DNA of 23,810 bases from a virus: positions 1 to 23,810 of the IMG/VR virus record IMGVR_UViG_3300037541_000170. One strand, written 5' to 3'. Under the pieces are notes generated by a model. That model did not search any database. It was not told the origin of the DNA and saw only the letters and a program-made list of their open reading frames with translations. Numbering within the stretch: position 1 is the stretch's first letter; every line of letters starts with the position of its first letter. The position numbers and the translations under genes were made by a program. Positions 2,849-7,746 of this stretch are shown in pieces.

Positions 2849-3495
2849 AACTTAAAATTTAGTCGATTCAATAATTTATCTGCTTCAGAAATATCATCAG
2901 AATTTTGTTTTTTATTTATTGATTCCCAAAATAATCCTTGCCAACCATTTTCGATTGAATTATTTATAACAAATTTACATTGATCAAAATTATAACTTTT
3001 CATTTTTTCGTAAATCTGTTTTATTGTAGGTTCTTTTATCGGTCTTTTTATCTGTTTTCGATAGCTAATCCACTCGTCTAATAATACTTCTTTTTCATTC
3101 TTTTCTTTCTTATCATTCTTGTTTGTCGTTAGTTGATTGTTGATTGTTTGTTGTTTGTTTGTTAGTTGTCTGTTAGTTTGATCATTTTCATCTTGGTAAC
3201 TATCATATTTACAAATAGTTACGATACTATATCTGTTTGTTGATTTTAATGAAATTTCATTTGTGTTTTCAAACTTTTTTAATAACGTTCTAATTGATTG
3301 AATACTTATTCCAGTATCTGCAGAAATCTTATTTAAAGAGGCCACTAATTGACCTCTTTTTATTGTTATTCCTTGCCATTGTAGATCTTTATGATTTGCT
3401 TTTAAAATTAGATATATAAATAAATGAACTGCTTCTGTTTTTTCAAACCACTGCCATTCAAGAAACTTTCTATGTATCTTTATCCATCCACTCAT
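2845..3495 (-). CDS. Replisome organizer-like winged-helix protein
   Basis: This 216-residue protein starts MSGWIKIHRKFLEWQWFEK, followed by a helix-turn-helix region (residues about 55-75, SADTGISIQSIRTLLKKFEN). This N-terminal arrangement is characteristic of phage replication initiators and DnaD-like replisome organizers. A low-complexity Asn/Thr/Lys linker (about 105-130) separates it from a C-terminal helical segment with a YNFDQCKFVINNSIENGWQG motif, similar to DnaD C-terminal tails. It is coupled to the helicase gene by a 4-bp overlap. Known relatives bind the origin and load the helicase. Confidence 0.65.
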   Translation of the reverse strand: MSGWIKIHRKFLEWQWFEKTEAVHLFIYLILKANHKDLQWQGITIKRGQLVASLNKISADTGISIQSIRTLLKKFENTNEISLKSTNRYSIVTICKYDSYQDENDQTNRQLTNKQQTINNQLTTNKNDKKEKNEKEVLLDEWISYRKQIKRPIKEPTIKQIYEKMKSYNFDQCKFVINNSIENGWQGLFWESINKKQNSDDISEADKLLNRLNFKL

Positions 3496-3911
3496 ATAAT
3501 TAGTTTTTGTTGTAAAAGGTCGCTAATATACAAAAAGCATGATTTTTCTTCTTTAAATGATTTTTTTAACTTGATCAAAACTTCTTCCTTTTTACAAATA
3601 GGCTCGATATAAGCATAGTTATCTACTAATTGAATAAATACATATAAATCTGAATTTAAATGCTCATTAGCGCGCTCTAAATCGCAGTTAAACGTATATG
3701 TTTTTGCTTTAGTTGCCTTTACTTGATATGTTAAGCCTTTATGATCAGCAAAATCAATTTTTTGAAAATCACGGTCGGCTGATTGATGAAATAATGGCTC
3801 ATCTGCAAAATTAAATGTATACCATAATTCAAATATCTTTTCACCTATAAAACCTGTAGATTCGTTTCTAATTTCTGAAGGTATTCTAATTTTAGCTAAA
3901 TATGTTCTCAT
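3492..3911 (-). CDS. PD-(D/E)XK-like nuclease candidate
   Basis: The 139-residue protein carries the pattern expected of a restriction-endonuclease-like fold: a helix Glu in GFIGEKIFELW (Glu24), the Asp of FQKIDFAD (Asp53), and a TYQVKATKAK strand with Gln63-x-Lys65 in place of the usual (D/E)xK. The lineup suggests a small nuclease such as a Holliday-junction resolvase or an endonuclease acting on host DNA. It lies between the MazG gene and the replisome organizer and overlaps the latter by 4 bp. The Gln for Glu/Asp change occurs in some active subfamilies, so it does not rule out activity. I have no exact family name. Confidence 0.5.
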   Translation of the reverse strand: MRTYLAKIRIPSEIRNESTGFIGEKIFELWYTFNFADEPLFHQSADRDFQKIDFADHKGLTYQVKATKAKTYTFNCDLERANEHLNSDLYVFIQLVDNYAYIEPICKKEEVLIKLKKSFKEEKSCFLYISDLLQQKLII

Positions 3912-3912
3912 T

Positions 3913-4206
3913 TTAATCTTTTTTAAATGTTCCGTTTTCCATTTTTCCTGTTCTATTTTTGATCACATCATAAGCTGAATCAATGCAATCTTCTAATCGA
4001 TATCCGCAAAGTTCTGATAAGTTTACCAAAACTACAACACAATCACCTAGCGCATCAATTATTTCTTCTTGATCATTTTTTAGTATCGCTTTAGCTAATT
4101 CGCCAGCTTCTTCTTGTAATTTAATATACTGTGTTTTTGCATCTCCTTTTTCATAGATACCTTTTGTTTTAGCCCATTCTCTAATTAATTCAAATTTAGT
4201 TTTCAT
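3913..4206 (-). CDS. mazG: MazG-type nucleotide pyrophosphohydrolase
   Basis: This 97-residue protein shows the all-alpha NTP-pyrophosphatase signature. KLQEEAGELAKAIL (residues about 29-42) supplies the EExxE metal motif, and EEIIDALGDCVVVLVNL (about 47-63) supplies the ExxD half. Members hydrolyse (d)NTPs to (d)NMPs plus pyrophosphate. Placed directly after a nucleotide hydroxymethylase gene, it may remove an unmodified dNTP from the pool or supply the dNMP substrate. The substrate cannot be read from sequence. The gene is 2 bp from the hydroxymethylase and 1 bp from the nuclease gene. Confidence 0.8.
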   Translation of the reverse strand: MKTKFELIREWAKTKGIYEKGDAKTQYIKLQEEAGELAKAILKNDQEEIIDALGDCVVVLVNLSELCGYRLEDCIDSAYDVIKNRTGKMENGTFKKD

Positions 4207-4208
4207 AT

Positions 4209-4841
4209 TTATTTATTTAAAAAGTTACTATATAAGTGCATGTTAGAAGTAAAGTGATAATACCAACCAACTTCTATATTTAATTCATTTGCTATTAGTT
4301 CTTGTAATTTTGAAAAACAATATTGATCATTGCAAAATCCAAACCATAGGTCATTTGATCTCATATTAACTGTCATGCACAACATTTCATCTACTATTTG
4401 AAAATGAATTGATAAAGTGCAAGGAGTATCGTTACTATAAGAATCAATTTCTTTTCCGTCGTAAATTGATATTACAGCGTGTCTTGTATTTTTATTTGTT
4501 TTTAATTTGTTTATTATTTTATTTAATTGATCATTTCTTAACCATTGCCAACCATAATTAGATCTTACTAAATTATGTTCATCCATGTGTTTTTTCCATA
4601 TCGGTGCTCTTTTAGATATTTCAGAAGCGTCAGGATTTCCTGATAAATACCATTGCCATTCAAATTCTGCATAATCTTTATTCCATTTTCTATAATTAGT
4701 ATTTATCTCATTATCTAATGGATTCTGCAAATAAAATCCGATGTTAAACATTGTTTGAGTATCATCAATTTCTTTTCCGTGTAAATTGATTAAATTATAA
4801 AGATATTCAAATGCTTGTTGAGCGTTATTAAAGTTATTCAT
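4209..4841 (-). CDS. Thymidylate-synthase-fold deoxynucleotide hydroxymethylase (T4 gp42-like)
   Basis: The 210-residue protein belongs to the thymidylate synthase superfamily. NDTPCTLSIHF holds the nucleophile Cys141, TRHAVI the phosphate-binding Arg120, and NMRSNDLWFGFCNDQY (159-174) the Arg-Ser phosphate site and base-recognition residues. Near the end is HFTSNMHLYSNF, equivalent to the GDAHIY strand. The block NMRSND-x-x-FGF-x-ND is nearly the same as I recall for T4 dCMP hydroxymethylase, where the Asp of ND replaces the Asn that thymidylate synthases use to select dUMP. Here that residue is Asp172. A dCMP or dUMP hydroxymethylase making a 5-hydroxymethyl nucleotide is therefore more likely than a thymidylate synthase. 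It overlaps the PLP gene by 8 bp. Confidence 0.75.
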   Translation of the reverse strand: MNNFNNAQQAFEYLYNLINLHGKEIDDTQTMFNIGFYLQNPLDNEINTNYRKWNKDYAEFEWQWYLSGNPDASEISKRAPIWKKHMDEHNLVRSNYGWQWLRNDQLNKIINKLKTNKNTRHAVISIYDGKEIDSYSNDTPCTLSIHFQIVDEMLCMTVNMRSNDLWFGFCNDQYCFSKLQELIANELNIEVGWYYHFTSNMHLYSNFLNK

Positions 4842-5679
4842 GATTCCAATTTCTAAATGAGTTAATACTACTTTTATCTAAGTTTGATTTTAAATTACCT
4901 GCGACATTCCAAAAAAGATCTCCAGGTTGAAGATATTCCCAAACCTTGGCATCATAATTAGACGCGCTAGGAAAAGGAGGTATAATTTTACTATTTGTGC
5001 TAAAATCCTGGTAATGACCAATTACATTTGCTCTGCCTTTTTCTCCGTCATGTATATTCCTAGCTACCGCTAAACCGTTTGCAGTGGCATTCGGCCATGC
5101 TATTTGCAATGCTCTGTTTAGTACGCCTGTTGAAAATGCAGTCCAAAAAGAATTAGGTTCTTTTATTTTTATAGCAGTTTTTATGATCATAGCCGTAACT
5201 AAAGGATGTTTTAACCCTAATGGAATAAAGAAGGCCCCATTTTCTTCTGCGTATCTTTTAGCTATTAGATTCAAATTCGGCATAGCGGCAATTCTATAAA
5301 AATGATATTCGCAACCATTTTCAATGCAATAAGCTTGATGTTCTGAGATTTCTTTAGAACTTGGCATAAATAATACAAGCTTTTTTCCGTATTGTTTACA
5401 TAATTTAGTTAACGAAACGCCTGCATAACCAAATCTAGGTTGAACATATACAATAGTATCTGACTTACAATTAGCGATTAATGCTTCTCCTGCTCTTGCT
5501 TTTGAACCTACCTCTAGTAGATCTTCTCTAACTACATTAATACCGTTATGATCTTCAATAATAGGATCAGGAAAACTACTTTTAAAATCTTCTACCATTT
5601 CTAAATACTCATCTAAACTGTATATTGAATCAACATTATAGTTTGAAGTTGTAACCGTAAATTTTTCTATCTTATTCAT
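4834..5679 (-). CDS. Fold-type-II PLP-dependent enzyme in the DNA-modification cluster
   Basis: The 281-residue protein resembles fold-type-II PLP enzymes (ACC deaminase, D-cysteine desulfhydrase, threonine synthase). LLEVGSKARAGEAL corresponds to the GNKxRKxE motif with the likely Schiff-base Lys60. YVQPRFGYAGVSLTKLCKQYG (from residue 78) matches the substrate-loop strand and helix. AFSTGVLNRAL (about 181-191) matches the glycine-rich phosphate-binding loop. Sequence identity to known enzymes looks low. The gene overlaps both neighbours by 8 bp, between an amino-acid:DNA transferase-like gene and the hydroxymethylase. Thymidine hypermodification pathways are known to use PLP enzymes to trim an amino acid attached to the base; that role is inferred here. 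Amino-acid supply is the alternative. Confidence 0.6.
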   Translation of the reverse strand: MNKIEKFTVTTSNYNVDSIYSLDEYLEMVEDFKSSFPDPIIEDHNGINVVREDLLEVGSKARAGEALIANCKSDTIVYVQPRFGYAGVSLTKLCKQYGKKLVLFMPSSKEISEHQAYCIENGCEYHFYRIAAMPNLNLIAKRYAEENGAFFIPLGLKHPLVTAMIIKTAIKIKEPNSFWTAFSTGVLNRALQIAWPNATANGLAVARNIHDGEKGRANVIGHYQDFSTNSKIIPPFPSASNYDAKVWEYLQPGDLFWNVAGNLKSNLDKSSINSFRNWNHE

Positions 5680-6583
5680 GACTTAAATTGTTTTTATAAA
5701 TAATATTATTGTTAGCTTTTATATGCGCTTCAGATTGAAAGTTTTCAATATATCTAATAAAATCACACGCAACGTCTTCCATGTCATACGGTTTGCTATA
5801 ATTGCCTGTAATATCGCAAAGATATCTTAACGCTTTATCTGTATTCATCTTAGGTAAAATCATTTTCAAGCATTTTTTTGCATTACTTCCGACATATACA
5901 TCTGAATCTTGATCAACAAGATCAGGAAAATATTCCGCCATATCCATTGCAAAAGCTGTTAATACAAAGTTTTGACGATTATAACCTTTTTTTAATAGCC
6001 AATCATTTCCTTGATCAACTATTTCTTTAATGCCTGTTTTACCAGGTTTATTAATAAGATTAGTAAGATAATTAACCAAATCCATTGATTCATGCATTAT
6101 ATAGTTTCTAAGACCTCCTTTTATCATCGGTAATAAATATCCTTTGACATCGCAAAATCCTTTCTCTGGTATTACTCTAATCCAATCTTCATGTAAAGAC
6201 CAACCTTTTCTTAATTCTTCAACAATCCAAAAATTACCAAAACCGTGTGTGCCGAAAGGTTTTTGATCACCAATTTTAGGTATGTAATTAATCCCAGATC
6301 CGCAAAGTCTAAATAGATAACACATTTTAATAAAATTATCAGATGTTAATCTATCGCCTAAGTTCGTAAAATAAATGCCATTTTTTTTAGGATCATTTTC
6401 TCTATATATAATTGCTTCAGGCAATGAACTAAATGCAGCAAATCTACGGTTTACAACATCGTAAATTGGTACATTCCAAACTAAATCATCATTAATATCT
6501 TCTTTAGTCCAATTTTTGCCTTGAAATTTTAACTCTTGCATTTTTTTTGCTTTAGAGTAATAATTTGTGAATTGTGTTAACAT
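5672..6583 (-). CDS. Alpha-glutamyl/putrescinyl-thymine pyrophosphorylase-like protein (amino acid:DNA transferase candidate)
   Basis: I chose the ATG at 6583-6581 (303 residues) because it sits 1 nt after the upstream stop. An in-frame ATG at 6613 would add ten residues and overlap the SGNH gene by 29 bp. Counting from that longer start, the helix-hairpin-helix-like segment is FGTHGFGNFWIVEELRKG (120-137), followed by LVDQDSDVYVGSNAKKCL (232-249) and MEDVACDFIRYIENF (278-292). These resemble features I recall from the glycosylase-fold aGPT-PPlase families described by Aravind and colleagues: a GxGxFxAxE hairpin, DxxxVxxGxxA, and a final DVExxLCEFxKY helix. Such enzymes join an amino acid or polyamine to an activated 5-hydroxymethyl pyrimidine in DNA. 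Identity is remote, and the related kinase helical domain is an alternative. Confidence 0.55.
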   Translation of the reverse strand: MLTQFTNYYSKAKKMQELKFQGKNWTKEDINDDLVWNVPIYDVVNRRFAAFSSLPEAIIYRENDPKKNGIYFTNLGDRLTSDNFIKMCYLFRLCGSGINYIPKIGDQKPFGTHGFGNFWIVEELRKGWSLHEDWIRVIPEKGFCDVKGYLLPMIKGGLRNYIMHESMDLVNYLTNLINKPGKTGIKEIVDQGNDWLLKKGYNRQNFVLTAFAMDMAEYFPDLVDQDSDVYVGSNAKKCLKMILPKMNTDKALRYLCDITGNYSKPYDMEDVACDFIRYIENFQSEAHIKANNNIIYKNNLSHE

Positions 6584-6584
6584 G

Positions 6585-7478
6585 TTAAAATAGTTTAGGT
6601 TGTTTTTGTACATTATTAATATAAAATTTAGGTCTTAAGTGAACCGATTGCTTAGGTTCCATTACTTCAAAACTTAAATCTCCATCTTCATTTAAATAAC
6701 TACTCGGCCATTCTATATATGGTAATCCTGATTGAATTATTATATCATTAGCCACTTCTCTTAGAGATTTTCTTAATTCTTTCGATCCAAAAAAGTTATA
6801 GCCTTTATACTGACCAGATTGAGGTATTTTACGCGATTCATCTTCTACAGGAAGTAATGTTACCAAAGTTACATTATATTTTGAAGCATAATCAACATAT
6901 CTTTTAAAAAGTTTTTTAGTTGCTTCAATAGGATCTTCTTGTCTAGCTAAATGAAATCTCAGATCTATATTTCCAAAATACATTATAATATGATCATAAC
7001 CAGATAGATCAATATTTAATCTTAAAAAGCCAAAAAGTGTTTTTCCGTCATTTCTAGAAATCTCGTAATTTTCATTTGGCCATACACTTAGACTATGACT
7101 ATCTCCAATAACTAAATTTTTTCTTTTTGGCAATTCTATTAATTTAAGATCTTCAACATTATCATAAAGATTAAGTTTTCTAACTTTTGAAAAATCATTT
7201 AATTGAAATCCATCTAAACTATATAGATCTCCTTTATAATTATTTAATTTTTCCGCTCTTAGCAATACATCATCATTAATGCCTCCTATAATATTAAACT
7301 TACCAGGTCTAAAATTAACACCATGGTATATTATCAACTTATCATATTGATCCCAATTATCATTTTCTTTTAATACGTCTGCGTTAAATAATTTAGATAC
7401 AATATTCACCATTCCTGCCGAGTGTGAATTTTCTGAAGTTGCAGGGTTATTCAATACCCCGATGATTCCTGTTTTCAT
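6585..7478 (-). CDS. SGNH/GDSL-like hydrolase in the modification cluster
   Basis: The protein is 297 residues. Residues 124-131 read IGDSHSLS, a GDS(L/H) nucleophile block with Ser127. YFGNIDLRFHL (167-177) gives the block III Gly-Asn and the Arg-His pair seen in an SGNH subfamily with a GExDCRxHI motif. SVHLRP (278-283) supplies the likely catalytic His280. The usual Asp three residues before that His is Gln277, which is unusual. Residues 1-120 form an extra N-terminal region I do not recognise. The family contains esterases, deacetylases and acyltransferases. Position at the head of a base-modification operon suggests a role on a modified nucleotide or on DNA, but this is inference. Confidence 0.55.
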   Translation of the reverse strand: MKTGIIGVLNNPATSENSHSAGMVNIVSKLFNADVLKENDNWDQYDKLIIYHGVNFRPGKFNIIGGINDDVLLRAEKLNNYKGDLYSLDGFQLNDFSKVRKLNLYDNVEDLKLIELPKRKNLVIGDSHSLSVWPNENYEISRNDGKTLFGFLRLNIDLSGYDHIIMYFGNIDLRFHLARQEDPIEATKKLFKRYVDYASKYNVTLVTLLPVEDESRKIPQSGQYKGYNFFGSKELRKSLREVANDIIIQSGLPYIEWPSSYLNEDGDLSFEVMEPKQSVHLRPKFYINNVQKQPKLF

Positions 7479-7479
7479 G

Positions 7480-7746
7480 TTATTTTTGTTTTTCGTTATA
7501 ATTATTTAAACTAGCTAGATAACCTACTGCATCTAATAAATTATCTTCTTTGTGGTTATATGATTGACGCGATAATTTTAACGCAACCATAAAAATATAC
7601 ATATCACTAGCTGTGATCATTTTACCAGTGGCACCAGATGCAATTAATGCCGCTCTTTCCATACCTTCTTCAAAAGGTCCATAAGTCCTTTCTTTTTCTT
7701 CTTTGCGAAGATTAACAATTTCATTTGCTTTTTCTAAAATATTCAT
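7480..7746 (-). CDS. DUF6378-like small phage protein
   Basis: This 88-residue helical protein has a YGPFEEGMERAALIA segment (residues 22-36) followed by ITASDMYIFMVALKLSRQSYN and DNLLDAVGYLASLNNY. This fits the small phage family DUF6378 (pattern YGxxxxNxxxIA...IxAxDVxxxMxxLKxAR...DNxxDxxGY), whose function is not established. The arrangement of acidic and basic residues resembles MazG-like all-alpha pyrophosphatases. It is the first gene after the structured leader and is 1 bp from the SGNH gene, so it opens the modification operon. Confidence 0.6.
   Translation of the reverse strand: MNILEKANEIVNLRKEEKERTYGPFEEGMERAALIASGATGKMITASDMYIFMVALKLSRQSYNHKEDNLLDAVGYLASLNNYNEKQK

Follow-up and report, generated by a model that had tools for sequence, protein, structure and literature searches.

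A phage gene cassette predicted to build DNA hypermodifications on 5-hydroxymethylcytosine

Which base does a phage modify when a single operon joins a thymidylate synthase (TS)-fold hydroxymethylase to an SGNH hydrolase and a pyridoxal phosphate (PLP) enzyme? The question is raised by IMG/VR virus record IMGVR_UViG_3300037541_000170, a genome fragment whose full 23,810 bases are called the window here. Its minus strand carries six genes in the order DUF6378, SGNH, aGPT-PPlase-like (aGPT-like), PLP, TS-fold and MazG (Table 1). The original prediction had described these as overlapping or near-abutting genes of a DNA-base hypermodification operon, and both points hold: neighbouring open reading frames (ORFs) overlap by 8 nt or lie 1-2 nt apart, and the hypermodification assignment is supported. 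Its choice of a thymine pathway is contradicted by our results. We consider it likely that the genes form a hypermodification cassette of a tailed phage based on 5-hydroxymethylcytosine (5hmC): the hydroxymethylase bears a cytosine signature, and the SGNH protein begins with a domain homologous to T4 beta-glucosyltransferase (BGT).

Cytosine as the probable target base

The TS-fold enzyme is a predicted deoxycytidine monophosphate (dCMP) hydroxymethylase of the T4 gp42/MilA type, as its best matches are CMP/dCMP hydroxymethylases. When the profile of its family (42 members) was compared with the Protein Data Bank (PDB), the CMP 5-hydroxymethylase MilA came first and T4 dCMP hydroxymethylase fourth. 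Two residues are invariant in the family: the catalytic Cys141 and Asp172, which stands at the position of Asn177 in the E. coli enzyme; the catalytic Cys is followed by Thr, which T4 gp42 has as well, and not by His. The motif RSNDLWFGFCND aligns unambiguously with RSNDVVFGFRND of T4 gp42, and the family pattern, RSND..FG[FY]xND, is T4-like. The Asp is kept in every member with a readable motif, including those that have lost the preceding Asn (GFCID) and the LGLPYD variants, whereas gp58 of Pseudomonas phage M6 has Asn at this place in an alignment with T4 gp42 and MilA. According to the MetaGPA study, the exchange of Asn for Asp at position 177 is the switch from dUMP to dCMP, and positions 177 (Asp in modified) and 147 are the most associated with cytosine-modified phage contigs (PMC8670742); they are the very positions at which the cassette enzyme carries the Asp and the Thr. 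Cytosine is thus well supported as the target base of the cassette.

The original prediction had instead placed the operon beside the thymine hypermodification systems of phages M6, ViI, phiW-14 and SP10: the TS-fold enzyme would produce 5-hydroxymethyl-dUMP, the aGPT-like protein would serve as a 5-hydroxymethyluracil (5hmU) kinase or transferase, and the PLP enzyme would trim an attached amino acid. The relationship of the PLP enzyme to M6 gp52, the fold of the aGPT-like protein and the dCMP deaminase genes of distant carriers all fit such a pathway. However, the Asp, together with the Thr after the catalytic Cys, contradicts it, as do the cytosine hydroxymethylases at the top of the PDB matches and the BGT-type domain of the SGNH protein; furthermore, the cassette contains neither a 5-hydroxymethyldeoxyuridine (5-hmdU) DNA kinase nor a radical-SAM gene of the M6 kind. 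We regard thymine modification as quite improbable.

T4 builds glucosylated 5hmC with the dCTPase gp56, the dCMP hydroxymethylase gp42 and BGT. By analogy with gp56, the MazG protein likely converts dCTP to dCMP, which would feed the hydroxymethylase and exclude plain dC from the phage DNA. The cassette resembles the T4 pathway in its dCMP hydroxymethylase with a matching active-site motif, its nucleotide pyrophosphohydrolase and its BGT-type N-domain; unlike T4, it has an SGNH domain in place of the UDP-glucose half of BGT, adds the aGPT-like and PLP proteins, and lacks a glucosyltransferase. A second point of comparison is the 5hmC carbamoyltransferase pathway found with MetaGPA (PMC8670742), which likewise combines a TS enzyme carrying Asp177, a PRA-PH/MazG-type pyrophosphohydrolase and an enzyme that caps the 5hmC hydroxyl; in the cassette, the cap would come from the SGNH, aGPT-like and PLP proteins and not from a carbamoyltransferase.

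The SGNH, aGPT-like and PLP proteins

How might the hydroxymethyl group be capped? The SGNH gene has no Pfam match of its own, and its assignment in the original prediction is borne out by structure and motifs. The predicted structure (predicted local distance difference test, pLDDT, 93) consists of an N-domain (~residues 1-100) and an SGNH catalytic domain (~119-290, with S127, G169-N170 and H280). With a cut-off of E<=0.001, Foldseek aligned it to 22 PDB chains; almost without exception these are SGNH/GDSL esterases (prob 1.00), sialate O-acetylesterase and platelet-activating factor acetylhydrolase among them. The GDSH/GNID/SVH motifs correspond to block I (G125-D126-S127-H128), block III (G169-N170-I171-D172) and the His of block V (H280); GDSH is present in 91/91 members, GN in 90/91 and H280 in 90/91. 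Because the catalytic motifs are kept to this degree, the active site is probably functional.

The Pfam model of T4 BGT, PF09198, is matched by 8/47 SGNH members at E<=1 (best 3e-4). When residues 1-118 were aligned by hhalign to a small BGT family, E was 1.2e-6 over 90 columns, starting from residue 1 of both. Eight unrelated families served as controls and scored E>=0.16; 30 column shuffles scored E>=0.17, and no control or shuffle fell below 0.09. The likeness is confined to the N-domain: the SGNH half reached E=0.41 against BGT, and the UDP-glucose-binding C-domain of BGT is not matched. Within the N-domain, a conserved N-x-x-G-G loop (N62xxG65G66) corresponds to residues 70-74 of T4 BGT, an enzyme that acts on 5hmC. 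We infer that the BGT-type N-domain reads 5hmC in DNA and that the SGNH site, which replaces the UDP-glucose half, acts on it.

For the aGPT-like protein, the original family claim stands at the level of fold and fails at the level of sequence. The gene reaches no Pfam or PHROG family; the Pfam models for aGPT-PPlase, HMUDK_hel (PF18723; the helical domain of 5-hmdU DNA kinase) and amino-acid:DNA transferase (AADT, PF18724) hit 0/48 members at E<=1 and none of seven members checked further at E<=10. Profiles built from the aGPT-like and SGNH alignments found no useful match in the PDB, whereas fold comparison did. The AlphaFold2 model of the 5672-6583 product is all-helical (pLDDT 91), and in BFVD Foldseek matched it with prob 1.00 and TM scores of ~0.5 to 0.78 to predicted viral proteins annotated as AADT, aGPT-PPlase clade 1 and HMUDK_hel; in the PDB it weakly resembles AGOG, an archaeal DNA glycosylase. 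Residues D224, G242/N244 and E279..C283-D284..R287 are invariant in the family. The best local alignment with M6 gp55 lies in the corresponding C-terminal part of both proteins (G-[SP]-x-A..L, then E-x3-C-[DE]-F-x-[RK]-Y). For the C-terminal pattern E-x3-C-x-[FW], the sequences are EDVACDFIRY in the window, EHTLCEFDKY in M6 gp55 and ETVLCKWKSH in gp51; this pattern is weak on its own, since 14% of all ORFs >200 aa in these loci contain it. By fold only, the protein belongs to the aGPT/5-hmdU-kinase/AADT group, from which it probably descends and whose mode of action it would share, without falling into one of the named clades; its likely substrate is 5hmC flipped out of the DNA.

The PLP enzyme was originally linked to those of thymine-modifying phages, and it is indeed related to M6 gp52 (hhalign, 95.7%, E=9e-9). 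Its match to PALP (PF00291, E=4e-5) is below Pfam's cut-off; PHROG 7093, which it also matches, is annotated 'threonine dehydratase'. Lys60 is invariant in the family and, judging by its G-x-K-x-R motif, would be the Schiff-base lysine, and 85/90 members share a C-terminal YDxKxW with M6 gp52. The PLP gene of M6 adjoins the AADT gene, and by analogy the enzyme of the cassette may act on a base-attached amino acid. We take the M6 genes to encode AADT (gp51), a PLP enzyme (gp52), a radical SAM protein (gp53), 5-hmdU kinase (gp55) and hydroxymethylase (gp58). With M6, the cassette thus shares a PLP enzyme of the YDxKxW subfamily, a protein of AADT/HMUDK fold and a TS-fold hydroxymethylase; it differs in the Asp of the last, in its SGNH protein, in the missing radical-SAM gene and in an aGPT-like protein without a sequence-level match to gp51 or gp55.

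PLP proteins with the C-terminal [YF]D-x-K-x-W also occur in Erythrobacter and Microcystis phages. In Erythrobacter phages R6L/ZS04 and Microcystis phage Mae-JY30, this subfamily is fused to or adjoins an N6/N4-methylase-like fragment, and no TS-fold gene was detected (Table 1); these loci possibly represent another base-modification route.

A conserved module and its relatives in cultured phages

The cassette genes travel together. This was assessed in 80 viral loci selected solely by similarity to the aGPT-like protein, with counts limited to contigs reaching far enough; the loci are the closest relatives and include some recurring near-identical contigs, so they are not 80 independent events. 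The SGNH gene lies directly upstream of the aGPT-like gene, or is fused to it, in 74/74 testable loci, and the PLP gene directly downstream in 76/76. A DUF6378 gene is found <=3 genes upstream of the aGPT-like gene wherever this could be tested, a TS-fold gene is nearby in 45/46 loci, and most have MazG downstream (Table 1). This co-occurrence is far beyond chance. Loci selected with the PLP enzyme take in far more distant phages. Three T4-like contigs from cellular assemblies (L185, L188, L191) encode SGNH, PLP and aGPT-like proteins together in changed orders; genes for a hydroxymethylase and a dCMP deaminase-like protein accompany them. These three sit in bacterial genome bins and are likely phage contigs caught there. 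In several distant carriers, a P-loop kinase-like gene lies between PLP and TS. In two further loci (L043, L047), the SGNH and aGPT-like proteins form a single ORF. That the genes fuse and change order and yet stay together strongly indicates a common pathway, and the six genes form a functional module.

Could the operon serve nucleotide metabolism alone, with MazG, DUF6378 and TS proteins for dTMP synthesis beside unrelated SGNH and PLP genes? MazG and TS are indeed common among phage nucleotide genes. The unbroken synteny of the SGNH, aGPT-like and PLP genes, the cytosine signature and the DNA-glycosylase-like and BGT-like domains speak against this and make it highly improbable. We reject both this explanation and the thymine pathway.

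The cassette genes are real and under purifying selection: against close relatives, the nonsynonymous rate (dN) is well below the synonymous rate (dS) for each gene with a usable estimate. The families originally named for the MazG, TS-fold, PLP (fold-type II) and DUF6378 proteins agree with their Pfam or PHROG matches; a common fold of DUF6378 and MazG is not supported by hhalign. The aGPT-like gene probably starts at 6583 and not at 6613, because nearly all relatives align from Met11 (6583). Downstream of MazG lies a gene without a Pfam or PHROG match whose GxxGE...IDF....YQVKA pattern is typical of PD-(D/E)XK nucleases and which travels with a subset of the loci; speculatively, and by analogy with T4 denB, its product might degrade unmodified DNA. 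The host is likely a marine flavobacterium, since the portal protein is closest to those of the Nonlabens (Flavobacteriaceae) phages P12024S/L (35% identity).

Table 1. Genes of the cassette and its neighbour in the window, and PLP-methylase-like loci of other phages
Feature	Sequence	Coordinates	Strand	Basis
DUF6378 protein, 88 aa, first cassette gene	window	7480..7746	-	PF19905 E=2.1e-13; upstream of aGPT-like gene in 67/67
SGNH hydrolase/acyltransferase-fold enzyme with T4 BGT-like N-domain, 297 aa	window	6585..7478	-	Foldseek, profile comparison, motifs
All-helical protein of aGPT-PPlase / 5-hmdU DNA kinase helical domain / amino-acid:DNA transferase fold	window	5672..6583	-	Structure model and Foldseek
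Fold-type II PLP enzyme, M6 gp52 subfamily	window	4834..5679	-	PHROG 7093 E=4.7e-39; hhalign to M6 gp52
Predicted dCMP 5-hydroxymethylase, thymidylate synthase fold	window	4209..4841	-	PF00303 E=4e-24; PDB profile matches; Asp172
MazG-type nucleotide pyrophosphohydrolase	window	3913..4206	-	MazG PF03819 E=3.7e-8; downstream in 41/46
Gene with PD-(D/E)XK nuclease-like pattern, module membership uncertain	window	3492..3911	-	Adjoins MazG/TS in several loci
PLP-methylase-like locus	L115	7816-10238		
PLP-methylase-like locus	L206	2326-4764		
PLP-methylase-like locus	L116	8117-9708		

But what about cultured phages? No aGPT-like protein was found in any of them by tblastn. The SGNH family occurs in T4-like Aeromonas phages (44RR, 31, 25 and relatives), Stenotrophomonas phage IME13 and Tenacibaculum phage PTm1, and the gp42-type hydroxymethylases of 44RR, 25 and IME13 carry the Asp. 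Phages 44RR, 31 and 25 possess genes 42 and 56 and lack glucosyltransferase homologues (Petrov et al., PMC2993671); whether such phages, with RB69 and JS98 named, modify 5hmC in another way was an open question in 2010 (PMC2993671). In 44RR, the 795-aa ORF233c (L113 6001-8388), annotated as hypothetical, combines an SGNH region with a C-region that weakly matches HMUDK_hel (E=8e-4, below Pfam's cut-off); the aGPT-like profile did not match this C-region significantly, even with more distant members added. ORF233c is a candidate 5hmC-modifying enzyme of 44RR/31-type phages. ORF233c of 44RR/31 and ORF225c of phage 25 thus resemble the cassette in their SGNH family, in the gp42 carried by the same phages and, in 44RR, in the HMUDK_hel-like C-region; unlike the cassette, these phages have no homologue of its PLP enzyme that we could find. 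No aGPT-like segment was detected with the SGNH of phage 25, IME13 and PTm1, nor a 44RR-type C-region in phage 25 and IME13. In the latter two, genes for UDP-galactopyranose mutase, an unknown protein of 358 aa and SGNH are adjacent (L204 776-4047 in phage 25, L205 270-4047 in IME13). PTm1 (L114) has TS-like matches at 123486-123854 and 200823-200996, one with an internal stop; an intron or intein may interrupt its TS-like gene.

Proposed pathway and alternatives

Beyond the homologies computed here, we propose a route in which the virion DNA would contain 5hmC and the late steps, their order and their acyl chemistry are conjectural. MazG, perhaps with the DUF6378 protein, would lower dCTP and supply dCMP, which the TS-fold enzyme would convert to 5-hydroxymethyl-dCMP; after phosphorylation, the polymerase would install 5hmC in DNA. 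Following replication, the N-domain of the BGT_N-SGNH protein would bind and flip 5hmC, and the SGNH Ser-His site would transfer an acyl group to the oxygen of the hydroxymethyl group or remove one from it. The aGPT/kinase/AADT-like protein with its DNA-glycosylase fold may activate the hydroxymethyl group, or swap in an amine or amino acid, and the PLP enzyme, as a relative of M6 gp52, could then tailor the attached amino acid. Tentatively, the cassette may be the cytosine counterpart of the aminoacyl-thymine pathway: BGT_N-SGNH would O-acylate 5hmC where the thymine pathway phosphorylates, the AADT-like protein would put an amino acid in place of the acyl group, and the PLP enzyme would trim this amino acid.

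It is also possible, if doubtful, that BGT_N-SGNH alone O-acylates 5hmC, for example to an O-acetyl or aminoacyl ester, while the helical protein only helps in flipping or targeting the base and the PLP enzyme supplies the acyl or amino-acid donor. The cultured phages that have SGNH without a detected aGPT-like segment, the strictly conserved catalytic motifs and the fusions of SGNH to a helical domain in 44RR and L043 are consistent with this. However, the PLP and helical proteins are almost never absent from the viral cassette, suggesting an enzymatic step for each, and the PLP enzyme resembles M6 gp52, which is thought to act on a base-linked amino acid.

Several observations weigh against a 5hmC cassette of the kind proposed. 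The window, as a fragment of a genome, contains no hydroxymethyl-dCMP kinase. The aGPT-like profile does not match the M6 gp51 or gp55 families significantly (E=0.08 or worse), also when more distant members are included. Distant carriers (L185, L188, L191, L196-L198) encode a dCMP deaminase-like gene, so there is a small chance that these carriers use 5hmU; T4 also has a dCMP deaminase. SGNH proteins may be esterases as well as acyltransferases, and in phage 25 and IME13 the UDP-galactopyranose mutase gene lies two genes from SGNH, so that in these phages SGNH could act on a sugar, perhaps galactofuranose, on 5hmC. Extended to the cassette, the SGNH protein would edit glycosyl-5hmC as an esterase or acetyltransferase, and the glycosyltransferase would be encoded at an unlinked site of the genome. 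The sialate O-acetylesterases among its structural matches and PF19040, an SGNH domain of acyl-modifying proteins, point the same way; no glycosyltransferase gene was recognised beside the cassette in the loci examined, and we think sugar editing unlikely.

The 5hmC cassette that we favour joins PLP and SGNH enzymes in a combination that, according to the original prediction, may give a new base structure. It resembles no published pathway that we found, and in the openly searchable literature we found no account of phages modifying bases with an SGNH enzyme, or of this gene set; an earlier in silico mention is possible. The SGNH protein would represent a domain swap, in which the 5hmC-reading half of a glucosyltransferase has been joined to a hydrolase or acyltransferase, and such proteins could be a source of new enzymes with which to mark or cap 5hmC. 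The SGNH and helical domains of ORF233c offer a testable candidate for 5hmC protection in Aeromonas phages of the 44RR type. Should the cassette be the cytosine counterpart of the aminoacyl-thymine pathway, it would make an amino- or aminoacyl-methylcytosine, a base not described so far that would be common among phages of the environment and possibly akin to whatever decorates 5hmC in 44RR-type phages. More generally, our reading implies that many environmental phages carry members of a new family of cytosine hypermodifications, which probably serve as armour against bacterial defences.

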